Of a stretch of DNA of 64,000 bases, positions 42,395-50,849 are shown piece after piece; the stretch's first letter is position 1, and each line of letters starts with the position of its first letter. The notes below the pieces were generated by a model. That model saw nothing but the letters and a program-made list of their open reading frames with translations. It made no database searches and was not told the DNA's origin. This DNA comes from Pseudomonadota bacterium. GTDB lineage: Bacteria > Chloroflexota > UBA5177 > JAJPKF01. The stretch covers positions 186,001 through 250,000 of the forward strand of contig JAJPKF010000020.1 in the NCBI GenBank assembly GCA_021323865.1, given 5' to 3'. The position numbers and the translations under genes were made by a program.

Positions 42395-43162
42395 ATGAAC
42401 AACAGCAAGGCCTTGATTGTGATTGCCGCCAGCGGGACCGCAGTGCTATTGGTGGCCATATTCTGGGTACTCGCCCTCAATTACACGCCGTTCGCCTACA
42501 GTTATCCGGATCACGGTCAGCTGGCCGTCTCACCACACAAGTGGACGACCAGGCCGAAGCACGTTACCATCCGGCTCAGCATTCAACAGACAACCAACAG
42601 AGGGCCGCACGGTGATTGGCTTGGCTACCAGCTGCAGCCTCCGGCGTCTCTTCAGCCCAATCCCCCGAATGCGGTCTCGAGTGGCCTCTCGTCGAGTGCT
42701 GCGTCACGCCTGGCCAAGTACCAGTACGGCGCGACCGTGCTCACCATCCCGGCTCATGCTCTCGTAACCGTCATCATTCACAACTACGACAGCCAGACGG
42801 CACTCAGGAACCCATTCTTCACGCAGGTCCAGGGGACCGTGGGTGGTGTCGCCTCCTGTGCGGCGACCAGGGATGCCGCGTTGACAAAACCCGACACGAG
42901 CTTCTGCAGCGGCAAGCCATTCAAGGTCATGCCGCTCGACATGACGTCCCACACATTTACGATTCCGGACCTGGGCGTGACGGTTCCGATCGGTGGGATC
43001 GGCGGCAGCAACGGCTATATCAGCATGAAGTTCACGTTCAGGGCTCCCAACAAGGGCACGTTCCGCTGGCAGTGCATTGTGCCCTGTGGCGGCGGCACCT
43101 ATGGGTTCGGGGATCCCATGTCTCAGTTTGGATACATGAATGGGCTGTTTCATGTCGTCTAG
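42395..43162 (+). CDS. Membrane-anchored cupredoxin with incomplete CuA-like motif
   Basis: A 255-residue protein with one N-terminal membrane segment (about residues 6-28). The C-terminal domain is cupredoxin-like, with His in 'DMTSHTFTIPDLGV' and 'RWQCIVPCGGGTYGFGDPM'. The Cys-x3-Cys spacing of CuA is kept, but the Glu between the cysteines is Val, the later His is Thr and the Met is displaced. Two further cysteines occur at 'ASCAAT' and 'SFCSG'. It lies between ctaG and a canonical subunit II and may be an electron donor or copper carrier; it could also be a non-copper paralogue. Confidence 0.65.
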   Translation: MNNSKALIVIAASGTAVLLVAIFWVLALNYTPFAYSYPDHGQLAVSPHKWTTRPKHVTIRLSIQQTTNRGPHGDWLGYQLQPPASLQPNPPNAVSSGLSSSAASRLAKYQYGATVLTIPAHALVTVIIHNYDSQTALRNPFFTQVQGTVGGVASCAATRDAALTKPDTSFCSGKPFKVMPLDMTSHTFTIPDLGVTVPIGGIGGSNGYISMKFTFRAPNKGTFRWQCIVPCGGGTYGFGDPMSQFGYMNGLFHVV

Positions 43163-44007: not shown

Positions 44008-44616
44008 GTGCTTCCGGCTAGCCCCGTCGCAGACTCGAGGTGGCAAGGTTTGCCCTTCCTTCGACGGCGGGGCGCAGTTCTCAAGGCAGGGCTGATCGTC
44101 GCGCTCGGGCTGGCCCTCCTGGTCGAACAGATCGTATTCAGCGTTGCGAGTCCCGCCACCCGGCGGCTCTCCATTGCCACACCGCACTCCTTTGGCGGCC
44201 GGGTGGATAGAGCACTCAGCCAGGCATTGGGACCAAGTGACCGCGGCGTGCAGCGCTTCCGAATCCTCAAGATGCGCTCAACCCCGTCCGGGCGGATTCT
44301 TACCGTTCGATGGGCGATCAACAGCGACCTATCCGCGGGAAGCATCGGCAATGGGGCTCAGGTCGATGCCTACCTTGCATTTGACCGGTTGTTCTCGAGC
44401 GCGTTGCGTGTGCGACGCGTGAACCTCATCGGAACCTATCCCAGCATGCAGCGGGGCCGCGTCCGGGAGATGGTTGTCATGCGGCTATGGATGAACCGGA
44501 AGACTGCCCGCCTGATCGGCCGGTCGGGTTGGTCAAACCTGGATGCTCCAACGGCCTGGCCATTGATTCACCGGGTGTATGTCGCCGCCGATTTCCAGCC
44601 CATCCAAGGAGAATAG
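44008..44616 (+). CDS. Membrane-anchored protein of unknown function
   Basis: A 202-residue protein beginning 3 bases after subunit II. One hydrophobic segment (about residues 26-46) is followed by a soluble outer part with mixed beta-type sequence ('RILKMRSTPSGRILTVRWAI', 'DAYLAFDRLFSSALRVRRV'). No motif recognised. Its placement suggests it is part of the oxidase transcript. Confidence 0.6.
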   Translation: MLPASPVADSRWQGLPFLRRRGAVLKAGLIVALGLALLVEQIVFSVASPATRRLSIATPHSFGGRVDRALSQALGPSDRGVQRFRILKMRSTPSGRILTVRWAINSDLSAGSIGNGAQVDAYLAFDRLFSSALRVRRVNLIGTYPSMQRGRVREMVVMRLWMNRKTARLIGRSGWSNLDAPTAWPLIHRVYVAADFQPIQGE

Positions 44617-44621
44617 GGGCT

Positions 44622-45818
44622 CTAGCCGACGAGTCGCACCTCTGGTGGAGTCAGCCCCCGGCTGCTGAATGCAGACTGGATGTCTCGGATTACCTTTTCT
44701 CCAGACCTCGACTTGCCGGTCACACGGAGATGCTCCAACGCCTGGGCGGTTTCTTCGGTCAACCCTACACCGGCAAGCCGGACAGACTCATCTCCGACGA
44801 TCCTCACCAAGACCAACCCCGCCCGGGCGGCCGCTAGGCGCCGCGCAGACGGGTCTTCGACGGGTCGCTCGACATTGCGCTGGTGAATCAGCTCGAGGCC
44901 GGGGAGCCGATATTCACCTCCGGCTGCCGCCACGCGAATGACTGATGCACCGGTGTTCTCAGAGAGGTAACGGGCGAGGAGAATCTGTTCTGAGATCGGT
45001 CCCGCCGCGATGAGCACCTCGGCCGGCAGCCACATTCCCACCATCTCCAGCGCCTCTTCTCGCGATGGTCCGGGTCCGCTGCTGAGGGGATGACTGGGAA
45101 ATGCCCAAACGCGAGTCGTTCGGGCAGCGATGTCGCTGCGCAGCTGTTGAAACGCCCCCCGATCGTCCCGTCCAGGCGTCAAGCCGATGAGAACGGTGTC
45201 CTTTCGGCCGAAGTCGGACAGCCGGGATCGGACCTGCGGGAGGACGTCCTTACCATGCCCGTCGATTGCAACGACCCGTGCGTCGAGGTGCTCAAATCCG
45301 GCAGCGGTGGCTGTGAAGAGCTCAGCATCCCAAGGAAGGTTGGTCACGTAGTGGACTCGACCACTCGCATCGCGGCACGCGTCTTCAAAGGCCTGGGCGA
45401 TTTGCTCCTGGTCAGGAAAGCTCACGATGTGTGTCCAGCTCGCGTCGACGATCACGACCCGATTCGTGGCAGCGGAAAGTTCTCGCAAATCCGCCGTGAT
45501 GTTGAAGCCCACGGCCAGATCCTGTGCTCCGATAACGTATCCGCGAAGACCCGCGCGGCGGTCGTCGACGGCACTCTCCATGCGGCAGTCATCGTTGTCA
45601 ATCCCACCCTCGGCTCCGGCTGACCCCGCTTGCCTGAGATAGATGGAACCCGTAGACCTGCGCTGCCAGGAGTCTGCAAGATGCGGCCAATTGCGGCCCG
45701 CCTCCTCAGGTGTCAGATTGACCAGCACGGACCAACCGCGGCCGATGACCACCCCAGCGACGCCGTCAACTCGGCCGGGCCCGTCCAAGATGAGAACCCG
45801 GACCCGCTGCCTAGGCAA
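44622..45818 (-). CDS. Degenerate RNase J-like (beta-CASP) protein
   Basis: A 398-residue protein that can be threaded onto the neighbouring RNase J. 'RVLILDGPGRVDGVAGVVIGRG' matches the first hairpin, and 'NRVVIVDASWTHIVSFPDQEQI' followed by 'SGRVHYVTNLPWDAELFTATA' matches the beta-CASP region, then 'DTVLIGLTPGRDDRGAF'. The HxHxDH metal motif and later metal ligands are missing, and the segment that carried them is shortened. It is probably a non-catalytic partner or regulator, comparable in concept to RNase J2 or CPSF100. It starts at a TTG overlapping the RNase J stop by 8 bases. Confidence 0.6.
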   Translation of the reverse strand: MPRQRVRVLILDGPGRVDGVAGVVIGRGWSVLVNLTPEEAGRNWPHLADSWQRRSTGSIYLRQAGSAGAEGGIDNDDCRMESAVDDRRAGLRGYVIGAQDLAVGFNITADLRELSAATNRVVIVDASWTHIVSFPDQEQIAQAFEDACRDASGRVHYVTNLPWDAELFTATAAGFEHLDARVVAIDGHGKDVLPQVRSRLSDFGRKDTVLIGLTPGRDDRGAFQQLRSDIAARTTRVWAFPSHPLSSGPGPSREEALEMVGMWLPAEVLIAAGPISEQILLARYLSENTGASVIRVAAAGGEYRLPGLELIHQRNVERPVEDPSARRLAAARAGLVLVRIVGDESVRLAGVGLTEETAQALEHLRVTGKSRSGEKVIRDIQSAFSSRGLTPPEVRLVG

Positions 45819-47343
45819 GCAGGACCACCGCCGGCGGCGGTCGGAATCGGCGTTTGAGGGCCAGGCTCAGGTCATCCGGACTGCCGATGTCTCGGCCGTG
45901 ACGCTCGACCCAAGCAGTCACGTCGGCTCGACAGTCCATGCAATCGGTCACGAGGCGATTGCGCCCCGGTCGGATAACGACAAGTCCGGCATCGCGAATC
46001 CGGGCTCGCTCGTCGAGCACCGTTTCGGACAGACGTGAAGCGGATCGCTGTTTGCCCTTGGCGAGCTGATAGTAGTCGACCGATCCGTTCCCTTTGATGA
46101 CGCGCGGCTTGTCATCCAGCAGCACCCGATCACCGTTTGCCGCCTGAACAATGCGCTCGCTGGGAATGCCACATCGGGCCCCAAGCTCTCGCATGACCGC
46201 ATGTCGGTAGTAGTCGCCGTGAAACGGGATGACCCAGCCCGGCCTGATCAGCTTCATCACTCTCTGCAGCTCCTGGCCAGTGCTGTGGCCGGAGATGTGG
46301 ACGAGGTAGTCGCGATACGTGATGACTTCGACGCCCTTTCGCATTGCCATTTCGACGAGGGACCAGAACGGCTCCTCGTTGCCGGGGATGGGCGTGCTGG
46401 ACATGATGAGCCCGTCACCGCGACGCGCCTGCACCGGGTAGTGGCCACGGATGAGGCGGGAGAGCCCTGCGTCCGGCTCTCCCTGCGCTCCCGCGACCAT
46501 GATCAGCACCTTGGAGTCCGCGGCGTCGCGGGGTGGTGGGCCAATGGTCCAGGCATGGCTTGGCATCCGCTCGAATTCCTGGGCCATCTCTACGGCATTT
46601 CGCATGGATCGGCCAAGAACGTAGCAATGCCGTCCGACCGCCTGAGCGAGCTCGATGACGATTTGAAGTCGCGTCAGGTTGCTGGCAAACGCGGAGACAA
46701 TGACCCGACGGCCAGCCAACCGCCTGAGCGCAAGGAGGAGGCCTTCTTTCAGATCCGCCAGTGTGGGATCCGGTTCATCCACGTCAGCTCTGACGGCTTC
46801 GAGGAGCAGGACATCGATGGACTTGTACTGGCGGAGGCTCTGCGCGGGCAGGCGACCATATCCCGACTCATCACTCCCGCGCAGATCGCCCGAGTAAAAC
46901 AGTCGCTTCTTTGGAGTTTCAATGTACAGCGCCATCGATTCACTGGCCGAGTGGGGCACGGGTACCATCTGGAAACGAAATCGCTCGGTCATGGCCCACT
47001 CGTAGGGACCGACCGTTTCCACGGGAACGTCAATCCGCGCCTCGCCCAGCCGTGCACGAATAATGGCGGCTGTTACGGGTCCGGCCACGATTCGGGGGCC
47101 ACGCGGCAGCTGGCGCAGGATGTAGGGCAGCGCGCCGACGTGGTCTTCGTGCGAGTGCGTCAGGGCGACGGTTTGGACGGTTTCGGCCTGTTCTGTCGTA
47201 AGCCGCGGCACGCTGAAGTCGACTCCGAGATCGCGGTCCTGGCTCCAGGCAAGTCCCGCGTCCAGCATGAGAGTGTCTCGCCGGTCGGACACGAGATAGC
47301 AATTGCCGCCGCTGCTCGGGTTTCCCAGCAGGTCAAGATGCAC
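45811..47343 (-). CDS. RNase J-like metallo-beta-lactamase ribonuclease
   Basis: A 510-residue beta-lactamase/beta-CASP nuclease acting in mRNA and rRNA processing. Metal ligands are H63, H65, D67 and H68 ('THSHEDHVGAL'), H131 ('VPVPHSASES') and D153 ('YSGDLRG'). The beta-CASP part has 'VSAFASNLTRLQIVIE', 'GRSMRN', 'GAQGEPDAGLSR', 'SSTPIPGNE', then 'ISGHSTGQE' and 'IPFHGDYYRH'. The C-terminal extension is shorter than in B. subtilis RNase J1. The GTG start follows a GGGGA site. It is immediately upstream of and overlaps the degenerate partner gene. Confidence 0.88.
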   Translation of the reverse strand: MHLDLLGNPSSGGNCYLVSDRRDTLMLDAGLAWSQDRDLGVDFSVPRLTTEQAETVQTVALTHSHEDHVGALPYILRQLPRGPRIVAGPVTAAIIRARLGEARIDVPVETVGPYEWAMTERFRFQMVPVPHSASESMALYIETPKKRLFYSGDLRGSDESGYGRLPAQSLRQYKSIDVLLLEAVRADVDEPDPTLADLKEGLLLALRRLAGRRVIVSAFASNLTRLQIVIELAQAVGRHCYVLGRSMRNAVEMAQEFERMPSHAWTIGPPPRDAADSKVLIMVAGAQGEPDAGLSRLIRGHYPVQARRGDGLIMSSTPIPGNEEPFWSLVEMAMRKGVEVITYRDYLVHISGHSTGQELQRVMKLIRPGWVIPFHGDYYRHAVMRELGARCGIPSERIVQAANGDRVLLDDKPRVIKGNGSVDYYQLAKGKQRSASRLSETVLDERARIRDAGLVVIRPGRNRLVTDCMDCRADVTAWVERHGRDIGSPDDLSLALKRRFRPPPAVVLLA

Positions 47344-47381
47344 GGCACATTATCCCCATCGGCGTCCCGATCGAGCGTTGC

Positions 47382-48602
47382 CTACCGAGTAGGCAGGTGC
47401 AATCCGAGCTTCTTTTTGAGCTTCAGGATGCGGGTAACAGACGCGTTGACACGCCCAAGGATGTGCGGATGGCCTTTGGATGCCTGGATGATCCGGTTCT
47501 CAACGTCATTGGCCGTTGCCCAGGTCACGGGGCCGCCGGCAATCAAGAGCACATCCTCGCCCGCCTGAAGCGCCATCAGGCTCGCGGTGGCAATCCCAAA
47601 GTGACCCGACACCGAGCCCATGGTGAGGCTGTCCGTCATCAAGACGCCACCAAAGTGCAGCTGATCACGGAGCAAACCGGTGACGACCTTATAGGAGAGT
47701 GAGGCAGGTGTGTGGGCTCCCGTTATGCCAGGAAGCAGTACGTGTGTAACCATGATCGAATCGACGTGGGCCGACACCGCTTTCCGGAAGGGCAGGAGCT
47801 GATTCTGGAGGCCTGCCTTCGATAATCGTATCGTCGGCAGCTGGGTCTCCGGATTGACCGACGTGACACCGAGGCCCAGCACGTGCTTGGCAGTCGCGGC
47901 GACTCCGTGATGCTGATAGGCGCGGATCTCTGCCGTTCCAAGGCTGGCATCAATGTTCGCGTTCGGCCCAAACGACCGCCGCTCTTGTGCCATGATGCTG
48001 TTTGGGTTGCTCGCCACGTCGAGAACCGGCGCCAGGTTCATATTGATGCCGAGCTTACGAATCTGCGTCGCCTCGGTTGAGCAATCGGAATAGACTCTAC
48101 CGGCATTGTTGAGCTGTCCGTAATAGCTCTCGGATGGAAGCTGCTTCACTCCTCGGGTGATGCGGATGACCTCTCCGCCTTCCTGATCCACCGAAATGAA
48201 GAGCGGAATGTGGCCCTGTCGCTGAATCGATCCGTCGAGCGCCTTGAGCTGTGATGGAGACGCGAAGTTGTCTCCAAAAATGGTGATACCGCCGGGGTGA
48301 AAGTGCCGCAGCAGCTTTGCTTCTTGGTTGCTGAGACTCGTTCCCGAGAAGCTAATCATCAGCATCTGGCCAAGCTTCTGACGCAGGGTCATGTGGTGGA
48401 CCAAGGCGGCGATGGATCCGCTACCTGAACCGGCGACACGGGGCGGGTGCTTCGAGTGACTGGCTGCACCGAGACAGCCTGCAAGGAGCGTCAGACCAAG
48501 AATCCCGACTGAAAGGGTGCGAACGGGGGTGGTAGGGTGGGTCAGAACTGCGCCGGGCGCCGTCCACGATCGGCCTGACGTTGCTGGGGAATGGGGACGC
48601 AT
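47382..48602 (-). CDS. Glycoside hydrolase family 3 lipoprotein (NagZ-like)
   Basis: A 406-residue protein with a lipobox 'LLAGC' at about residue 42 after a long n-region, so probably lipid-anchored outside. The GH3 domain shows 'FISVDQEGGEVIRI', 'GINMNLAPVLDV' and the nucleophile Asp in 'VLMTDSLTMGSV'. The 'KHFPGHG...DSH' loop of Gram-negative NagZ is 'KHVLGLG...NPE', a variant known in other bacteria that lacks the loop His. It probably hydrolyses N-acetylglucosaminyl or similar beta-linkages, maybe peptidoglycan fragments. A small TGCCTAC/GTAGGCA hairpin spans its stop codon. Confidence 0.82.
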   Translation of the reverse strand: MRPHSPATSGRSWTAPGAVLTHPTTPVRTLSVGILGLTLLAGCLGAASHSKHPPRVAGSGSGSIAALVHHMTLRQKLGQMLMISFSGTSLSNQEAKLLRHFHPGGITIFGDNFASPSQLKALDGSIQRQGHIPLFISVDQEGGEVIRITRGVKQLPSESYYGQLNNAGRVYSDCSTEATQIRKLGINMNLAPVLDVASNPNSIMAQERRSFGPNANIDASLGTAEIRAYQHHGVAATAKHVLGLGVTSVNPETQLPTIRLSKAGLQNQLLPFRKAVSAHVDSIMVTHVLLPGITGAHTPASLSYKVVTGLLRDQLHFGGVLMTDSLTMGSVSGHFGIATASLMALQAGEDVLLIAGGPVTWATANDVENRIIQASKGHPHILGRVNASVTRILKLKKKLGLHLPTR

Positions 48603-48713
48603 AAAGCCCTCTCTGGGGACGGTAGGAGGTAGTCCACGAACCGAGCCGCCAAGGCCAAGACTGCGCTGGCGCCGGCAGCCGCCGGTTGCTGCCTTATCAT
48701 AGGTGCCGGCCTC

Positions 48714-50849
48714 GTGATCGCCGGCTGCGCACGATCATATTCGCCGGCACCGGTCTCAACCCGAGCTTCGCGCCCGCCGGTAACTTCACCCACGCTCGTG
48801 CCGTCGGCCCCAACGCCATCGCCGCGTCCGCGGGTACGCCGCCGGCATACTGCGACGCCGACTCGGTCGGTTGCCGCGAAACCTACGAGGCGAACACACC
48901 CAAACAGGCGCCACAAGCGGAACCGCACCGGAACAGCCGTAAGGGCCACCGCCGCTGAACCGCGCCACGGCACCCCCAAGCCGCGGCAGACCCGTGCCCA
49001 CTCGGTGTCTGCCCAGCACTCCTCTCGCCTGAAGCCCCAACCAACGGTTCGGCCTTCGCCCAGTCCGAGCCCGAGCCCCACTGGACCGCCCCCATCGCAG
49101 GCGATTACGCATATTGTCATCATTGACAAAGAGAATCGCTCTTTTGACGAGTATTTCGGGCGTTTCCCAGGCGCCGACGGTACGACCTCCGGTGAGCTGG
49201 CGAATGGAACCCGCGTGCCATTGGGCCACACTCCGGACCACACACTGCTCGACATTGCCCACTCGGGAAGGGCGGCGCGAAGAGCCGTCAACGGGGGGCT
49301 GATGAATCAGTTCAACCTCAATCCAGGTGCGATTCAGAACGGTGTCGACATCGCCATGAGCCAGATGTGGCGCCGCGATATCCCCAATTACTGGCGATAC
49401 GCGGGATACTTCACACTGGACGACCACTTTTTTTCGACCATCAATGGACCAAGCTTTCCCAACCACCTGGTCACGGTCGCGGGGCAATCGGTCAACACCG
49501 ACGACAATCCCCGCAACATTGCTCACTACGCCTGGGGGTGTGACAGCGGCCCAACCGCCTGGGTGGATCAGATCAACCCCACGAGCGGAGCCCATCGCAA
49601 GGTCAAACCCTGCTTCAACGTCCTCACGCTGCCGGATGAGCTCCAGCGCGCGCATGTGAACTGGAAGTACTACGCTCCACCACGGTTTCGATCCGGGTAC
49701 ATCTGGTCCGCCCTCGACGCCATTCGACACATCCGCTATTCCAACCTGTGGACCAGCCACGTTCCATCGGACAAAACGTTCATCCCCGACGCGCTGCATA
49801 ACCGTTTGCCGGCAGTCAGCTGGCTGGTGACGAACGAGATCGAGAGCGAGCACCCACCGCACAGCGCGTGTGCCGGAGAGAACTGGACAGTCCGTGTCCT
49901 CAATGCCCTCATGCGGAGCCGCGAGTGGCCGCACACGGCGGTATTCCTTACGTGGGATGACTTCGGAGGCTTCTACGACCACGTGCCACCGCCTCGATAC
50001 AACCTCCTTGCTCTGGGCCCTCGGGTGCCAACGATTGTCATCTCGCCGTACGCGCGGCCTCACTTCGTAGACCACGCAACCTACGACTTCAGCTCAATTC
50101 TTCGCTTCATTGAGGATCGCTTCCAGGTGAAGCCATTGACGAGCTTCGATCGGCGAGCGGCAAGCATGTCCGGCAGCTTCGACTTTGCGCAAGCGCCGCT
50201 TAAGCCGCTGCTGCTGCACACTCGAAAGTGTCCGCCGGGCGCCTACCAACGCTCCAGCATCCTCCAGGGCAGGATCGTCAGAGTGGTGAACGGCGAGCAG
50301 CCGGCTGTCAAGCTTCGCATCAAGCAAGTGAGCGCGATCGCGACCGTCAACATCTTGCCGGGAAGCATCCTCCAAGCCGCCGACGGCCACACAATGCATG
50401 TTGTGGCTCTGCAGCCCGGCGATGAGATCGTCGTTCGGGCTAGGCCCTCCCCCAACGCTGCTCTCACCTATACGGCGATGCTGTTGGAGGATCGAGACGC
50501 CGTGGTCTCTCGAGGCAAGGCCGTCATCAGCAACATCCGGGAGAAGAAGCGGAATCTCTCGATCTGGTACCGGTCCGGTGAAGTTACGGTTCACGTCCCC
50601 AAGGGGACGTCGATCCTCCTGCCGGGTGGTGGCACCGGTACGTTTGCCGACCTGGTTGTCGGCGAGCACATTCGGATTGCCGGTCTTTTCAATACCCGGA
50701 CACTGCACTTCCCCGGACCGTGGAGAATCAGAATTCTCACGTCCGTGGAGCCGCCTCAACCCATCGCGGCCGGAGCGTGCCTCGCACTCCCCGGCACTTC
50801 CTTCCTCTGCCCTCAGGCCTCCGGCGCGGGCGCCACTTCCGGAGGCTGA
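48714..50849 (+). CDS. Secreted phosphoesterase (phospholipase C/acid phosphatase-like)
   Basis: A 711-residue protein. Residues about 1-130 are an Arg/Pro/Thr/Ser-rich linker. The catalytic domain (about 135-500) has '[26 protein letters not shown]' in two blocks, the start signature of the phosphoesterase family, plus '[14 protein letters not shown]' and '[17 protein letters not shown]'. A C-terminal region (about 500-700) of beta-type repeats resembles DUF5666. In-frame codons before the GTG encode '[15 protein letters not shown]', a lipoprotein signal, so the true start is probably upstream, perhaps a CTG. It would act outside the cell on phosphate esters or lipids. Confidence 0.82.

Follow-up and report, generated by a model that had tools for sequence, protein, structure and literature searches.

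A divergent bacterial RNase J gene overlaps a gene for a putative RNase J-like pseudonuclease

The described systems closest to the present locus are the RNase J1/J2 pairs of Bacillota (rnjA/rnjB), in which an RNase J-type subunit whose HxHxDH motif is intact is joined by a second one whose motif is degraded. According to the parts of the papers drawn on here, RNase J acts as a dimer or tetramer, the C-terminal domain drives dimerization in RNase J1, and J2 of S. epidermidis is predominantly a monomer in solution (PMC7864078). J1 and J2 of E. faecalis form heteromers with a KD of about 74 nM, which is similar with J2 active-site mutants, and J2 activity matters for pilus production (PMC5383250, in part). 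For S. aureus, the cited portion of one study reports no detected phenotype of a J2 active-site mutant and a phenotype of the J2 deletion, and its authors propose a mainly structural part for J2, with J1 supplying the active site (PMC3937233). Since RNase J2 retains some activity and an incomplete metal site, its contribution alongside J1 is still under debate. This partial site reads HGHEHA in S. aureus (PMC3937233) and holds one Mn in S. epidermidis (PMC7864078), as given in the same portions of these papers.

Pairs of an active nuclease and a pseudonuclease are also known as CPSF73/CPSF100 and INTS11/INTS9, which heterodimerize via their C-terminal regions, INTS9 and INTS11 being 21.7% identical (PMC7980224, in part). 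These belong to another MBL/beta-CASP branch, and the inactive partners there keep the full MBL/beta-CASP domain. Besides, a single homo-oligomeric RNase J occurs in S. coelicolor, D. radiodurans, M. tuberculosis, and the relatives of the present bacterium considered here.

Herein, we describe two overlapping genes, P1 and P2, on the minus strand of the window, that is, the whole stretch of 64,000 nucleotides that was analyzed (Table 1). A first-pass annotation made from the sequence had claimed that an RNase J gene overlaps by 8 bases a downstream gene about 110 residues shorter; both open reading frames were found where it had placed them, the overlap was seen, and the length difference is 112 aa. 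The overlap possibly couples translation of the two genes. In S. aureus, rnjA and rnjB lie apart (SAOUHSC_01035 and SAOUHSC_01252 in the consulted part of PMC4419217), whereas P1 and P2 overlap. P1 is preceded on its own strand by a glycoside hydrolase family 3 gene, which ends 38 bases before it and is possibly co-transcribed with it. On the other side, the convergent ORF 44008-44616 ends 5 bases past P2, and the Pfam search with it gave no match. No promoter-like site was found across 44500-48900, and terminator-like sequence matched at chance level only.

Table 1. Positions of the genes, motifs, and aligned blocks at the P1-P2 locus (window coordinates)
Feature	Position	Strand	Basis
Glycoside hydrolase family 3 gene	47382-48602	minus	Pfam E 6.3e-61
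P1: divergent RNase J, 510 aa, GTG start	45811-47343	minus	MBL + beta-CASP + short C-terminal domain
P1 HSHEDH metal motif, residues 63-68	47140-47157	minus	invariant in RNase J alignment
P1 H131, metal ligand	46951-46953	minus	RNase J alignment
P1 D153, metal ligand	46885-46887	minus	RNase J alignment
P1 S351-G352-H353, phosphate-pocket motif	46285-46293	minus	RNase J alignment
P1 H375, last metal ligand	46219-46221	minus	RNase J alignment
P1 short C-terminal domain, residues 453-510	45814-45987	minus	length comparison, AF2 model
P1 end/P2 start overlap, 8 bases	45811-45818	minus	read from sequence
P2: RNase J-like putative pseudonuclease, 398 aa, TTG start	44622-45818	minus	coding signal, MSA-free AF2 model + Foldseek, collinear profile placement
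P2 residues 5-36, fit RNase J N-terminal strands	45711-45806	minus	profile column 7 = best offset
P2 residues 135-197, beta-CASP block	45228-45416	minus	profile column 206 = best offset
P2 residues 204-290, second MBL half	44949-45209	minus	gapless at offset 103 to P1, rank 1/468 offsets
P2 short C-terminal domain, residues 334-398	44625-44819	minus	strand-strand-helix-helix-strand, AF2 model

Two further observations concern the surroundings. A 455-aa open frame runs antisense to P1 (46201-47568, plus strand) and is probably mechanical; as a gene it was rejected, since codon usage of the P1 region was 0.244 bits/codon in the sense frame versus 0.132 in the antisense frame. ORF 44008-44616 and a second plus-strand ORF, 42395-43162, both without a Pfam match, lie inside a cytochrome oxidase cluster (coxA, ctaG, cox2-like).

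Pfam revealed both the MBL and the RNase J beta-CASP domain in P1, with matches to PF22505 (RNase_J_b_CASP, E 2e-26), PF12706 (2.6e-16), and PF07521 (1.6e-5). The NCBIfam score for MG423 was 215.8 bits, under the curated cut-off of 400; NCBIfam scores this far below the cut-offs fit strong divergence. A search against PDB sequences gave 28 distinct sequences at E<=0.001, the best RNase J chain being 5a0t (E 1.5e-54), which we take to be RNase J of S. coelicolor. As the annotation had claimed for the upstream gene, the metal set is complete: all seven ligands (H63, H65, D67, H68, H131, D153, and H375) are present in P1, together with the S-G-H pocket motif, the roles of these residues being those that we presume for the family. 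The J1 ligands named in the cited parts of PMC7864078 and PMC5383250 agree with these roles. An AF2 model of P1 built on 7 sequences reached a pLDDT of 76.5 and a pTM of 0.72, and its Foldseek match to RNase J (E 2.4e-41) was much stronger than that to CPSF73 (4e-20); of the 50 rows listed, 42 were RNase J and the others were CPSF73 or Integrator entries. P1 is predicted from its sequence to be the 5'-3' exo/endoribonuclease RNase J of the host bacterium.

A scan of genome contigs with P1 gave 23 loci, and six of them (L032-L037) served as complete RNase J proteins in the comparisons. Among the matches listed from the 400 genomes searched, the closest P1 relative in another genome was 36% identical. 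In a tree of 42 RNase J proteins including P1, from which P2 was left out as too divergent to place, the end branch of P1 was 7.06 versus a median of 0.33, and five order-mates of P1 formed one 100/100 group. Considering the very long P1 branch and the grouping of its order-mates, the tree position of P1 is unsure. P1 shares the full catalytic set and the order of elements with the homo-oligomeric RNase J proteins, whereas it differs from them in the long branch, in a shorter C-terminal domain (58 aa versus 85-106 aa), and in the overlapping partner gene.

P2 is very likely a real gene. Its frame scored 0.173 bits/codon in codon usage, more than the maximum of 0.152 among 95 wrong frames from 19 other window genes, and within the range of those 19 genes (minimum 0.158), which were themselves scored on the model that they had trained. 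The coding signal was weaker over the first ~80 codons.

Plain sequence methods found no significant similarity of P2 to RNase J. Searches of P2 against Pfam, NCBIfam, PDB sequences, PHROGs, and PADLOC gave no significant match, and the sub-threshold rows (Pfam E 0.01, NCBIfam 0.17, PDB 0.06 and 0.1) look like chance. No relatives were found by tblastn of plasmids, nor in viral contigs, where a search with the RNase J alignment gave none either. The annotation had proposed an HMM comparison to beta-CASP as a check; it was positive for P1 (the RNase_J_b_CASP match above) and negative for P2, to which the RNase J HMM gave -2.5 bits, with 202 of 2000 shuffles equally good. A crude local profile alignment of P2 with RNase J found nothing. 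A semiglobal one was weak (z 1.2-2.75), with 2 to 41 of 300 shuffles equally good depending on gap costs, and hhalign scored P2 against RNase J at 24.3, which 6 of 300 shuffles equaled. If these plain tests stood alone, the proposed kinship of P2 with RNase J would fall.

Part of the case for this kinship comes from where the segments of P2 fit. In hhalign, P2 204-273 aligned without gaps to P1 307-376, an offset of 103, and the elements of the AF2 models give the same offset. We then placed hand-picked blocks of P2 on a profile of 35 RNase J proteins that excluded both P1 and P2. For P2 204-290 at offset 103, 0 of 2000 shuffles reached the score at that register and 17 of 2000 reached it anywhere; the best offsets of P2 135-197 and 5-36 fell at collinear columns. 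Of 221 control windows from other proteins, 4 attained the z of P2 204-290 and 47 attained that of P2 135-197, so it is the agreement of the places that carries weight and not the z itself. Registers taken from P1 fared less well elsewhere. The beta-CASP block ranked only 34/492 at the 58-residue offset from the P1 model, the neighboring family column being best; we attribute this to one inserted residue in P1. For the N-terminus, registers that followed P1 ranked 262/524 and 55/528, other sub-blocks ranked 8 to 371 of about 520, and no C-terminal block ranked first (14/521, 81/532, and 51/526). A chain test without chosen blocks, run at four window sizes, was moderately selective only: 0/96, 3/96, 10/96, and 4/96 controls scored as high, some of them from loci fetched as MBL relatives that may include true distant kin, and so did 0, 2, 11, and 2 of 200 shuffles. 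MAFFT registers made with few RNase J proteins shifted the middle of P2 from one to another and were not used for the model.

At offset 103, the residues of the phosphate pocket and the last metal histidine are replaced in P2 (H349 by S246, S351 by G248, G352 by P249, H353 by G250, and H375 by A272), and D310/D207, E358/E255, P368/P265, and G376/G273 (P1/P2) are kept. There is no HxHxDH anywhere in the P2 protein, and the segment that bears it in P1 has no counterpart. The annotation had stated that P2 lacks every metal ligand. This is borne out for the histidines, and the exception may be one Asp of P2 (near 100 or 111), which could face P1 D153 in some alignments.

A structural comparison pointed to the same family. 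The AF2 model of P2, made from the P2 sequence without any alignment, had low confidence (pLDDT 45.2, pTM 0.36). When this model was searched with Foldseek against 350,542 PDB chains, all nine matches at E<=0.001 were RNase J; the best was 3bk1 (E 2.5e-6), and the next family appeared only at 8e-3. The TM-score against RNase J was 0.12-0.15, indicating that the domains of the model are wrongly packed and that the match reflects local order. VIA-align also placed RNase J on top (Z 7.1), barrel folds tying at 6-7; many other rows of that list were barrels, and absence from it excludes no family. Within the second MBL half, the elements start at 208-220-236-253-275 in the P2 model and 310-322-338-355-377 in the P1 model, and the spacings between element starts are the same (12/12, 16/16, 17/17, and 22/22 residues). 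What P2 lacks of the P1 elements lies mainly in three places: the metal-site region of the first MBL half, a single segment of beta-CASP, and the strands leading to the C-terminal domain. Thus, the earlier claim that P2 follows the same fold order gains support from structure prediction and from collinear profile placement and none from ordinary sequence search. The prediction for the 398-residue protein, which had been proposed as a check, returned RNase J as the sole family at E<=0.001, from a model whose pLDDT of 45 and TM-scores stay low.

In both models the C-terminal domain is built as strand-strand-helix-helix-strand, with element spacings of 10/10 and 10/9 residues (P2/P1), and it is the best-modeled part of P2 (block means 54-81). 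Counted from the conserved Gly, the rest of the protein measures 58 aa in P1 and 65 aa in P2, versus 85-106 aa (median 90) in 35 other RNase J proteins. An Ala precedes this Gly in P1 and P2, and in 0 of 34 other listed RNase J proteins (under 105 aa; by eye). The shared short domain and the Ala favor a duplication that followed the shortening, which suggests that P1 and P2 arose by tandem duplication. However, P2 resembles P1 no more than it resembles other RNase J proteins, P1 ranking 32/36, which counts against duplication and is expected only if P1 and P2 both evolve fast.

P2 was found in its own genome only, in sets that overlap: 1 of 61 genomes of relatives, 1 of 7 of the class, and 400 of the phylum, where none was credible in the 399 others. 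Among 396 genomes recorded as Actinomycetota, the phylum of one other locus, none was credible either. Weak matches appeared in 16 other genomes of the 400-genome search (E 0.005-0.08) and in 6 of the 396-genome search (E 0.002-0.01). They were counted as chance, the loci checked with the RNase J profile (9 of 16 and 6 of 6) all proving not to be RNase J. The annotation had asked whether the gene pair is conserved in related genomes, and on this point the result is negative: the pair was present in 0 of 60 other relatives and 0 of 6 others of the class. The obligate nature of the pair named in the annotation is thus conjectural. Yet this absence is no refutation of the pair, since what the relatives have is an ordinary rnj distinct from P1, in many cases at a pnp-udg locus whose equivalent in the present genome lacks one.

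Taken together, the central claim of the first-pass annotation, that a catalytically dead RNase J-like protein overlaps an active RNase J, is supported. We consider it fairly likely that P1 and P2 are an active nuclease and a pseudonuclease paired in the manner of J1 with a structural J2, the partner being far more eroded here. P2 would be a tandem duplicate of P1 with a dismantled active site: its HxHxDH segment would have been lost by deletion and the histidines of the phosphate pocket and of the last metal position exchanged for other residues, with the beta-CASP core, second MBL half, and C-terminal dimerization domain left in place. The overlapping genes may then yield a hetero-oligomer, with P1 as the cutting subunit and P2 in a structural or regulatory role. 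The gene overlap and the retained C-terminal domain suggest that the two proteins probably associate. By analogy with C-terminal dimerization in RNase J1 and the structural J2 of S. aureus, the role of P2 may be purely structural or regulatory, such as keeping the dimer stable, giving the RNA channel its form, or recruiting other proteins. Whereas J2 is still recognizable as RNase J by sequence and has an incomplete metal site, the 398-aa P2 lacks the entire HxHxDH segment and escapes Pfam and PDB sequence search. If the pairing is true, a partner without any metal site would allow what the second subunit does structurally to be told apart from what it does catalytically.

Other readings of P2 were weighed against this pairing. 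P2 may be derived from RNase J and act outside the complex, for example, as an RNA-binding or degradosome adaptor, the overlap being a trace of duplication. The loss of ~110 core residues and the nearly unrecognizable sequence would suit such a protein, as would the mostly monomeric J2 of S. epidermidis (PMC7864078, in part). However, the domain described in the same source as the dimerization driver of RNase J1 is the best-modeled part of P2, its shortness matches that of P1, and the genes overlap, and we regard this reading as unlikely. An inhibitor or titrating regulator, that is, a dominant-negative subunit poisoning the oligomer when in excess over P1, would show the same anatomy as a structural partner, with the dimer domain kept and the active site lost, and coupled translation would fix the P1:P2 ratio. 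Such a regulator is more usually under separate control than held at a fixed ratio by overlap; nothing specific speaks against it, and we give it a small chance.

Whether P2 is related to RNase J at all was also considered. The Foldseek matches could reflect a generic alpha/beta order in a low-confidence model, considering that the sequence tests are weak, barrels tie in VIA-align, and unrelated windows can reach a similar z. But it would then be accidental that the sole family at E<=0.001 among all the PDB chains is the family of the adjacent overlapping gene, that hhalign, the AF2 elements, and the profile placement agree on the register, and that the short C-terminal domain matches that of P1; an unrelated P2 is therefore quite improbable. 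A decaying pseudogene of a second RNase J, free of selection, would explain the core deletions, the absence in relatives, and the low coding signal in the first 80 codons. It is hardly credible beside 398 codons without a stop despite near-complete divergence, with codon usage retained over most of the gene.

The paired reading of P1 and P2 can be carried further with the rest of the genome. Searches with P1 and PF22505 found no RNase J besides P1 in the assembly, which is ~92% complete; a second rnj may lie in the missing part. We read 11 RNase J loci of relatives by eye from the start sequences of their ORFs, using no family search: udg lies directly upstream of rnj in 7 of 11, pnp precedes udg in 5 of these 7, and an FtsK-like gene follows in 2. 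In the own genome, pnp and udg stand together and an FtsK-like ORF follows with no RNase J there (L082, contig 5, 452-5695; 65 bases between udg and ftsK). A pnp-udg-ftsK site without RNase J indicates that the usual rnj site is empty and that the P1-P2 locus is a relocation or replacement. The sole RNase J of this bacterium might then be obligately heteromeric, pairing a catalytic subunit with a metal-site-deleted pseudonuclease. It would form an independent bacterial parallel to CPSF73/CPSF100 and, from a new locus, would have taken over from the ordinary RNase J seen in relatives; this extended reading is plausible, if on balance somewhat doubtful. If it is true, MBL/beta-CASP pairs of an active nuclease and a pseudonuclease would have arisen a second time, outside eukaryotes.

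Among the titles and abstract openings listed from the open-licence literature, none showed an RNase J gene that overlaps an eroded partner. The annotation had called such a bacterial pair little described. For the pairing itself this does not hold, as J1/J2 heteromers with a mainly structural J2 are known (PMC3937233 and PMC7864078, each in part); what is new here is how far the partner is eroded and its overlap with the active gene. As a separate observation on RNase J copy number, one genome of the same class (G006) carries two full-length RNase J genes (L070 and L071), which lie on separate contigs and fall in different parts of the tree.
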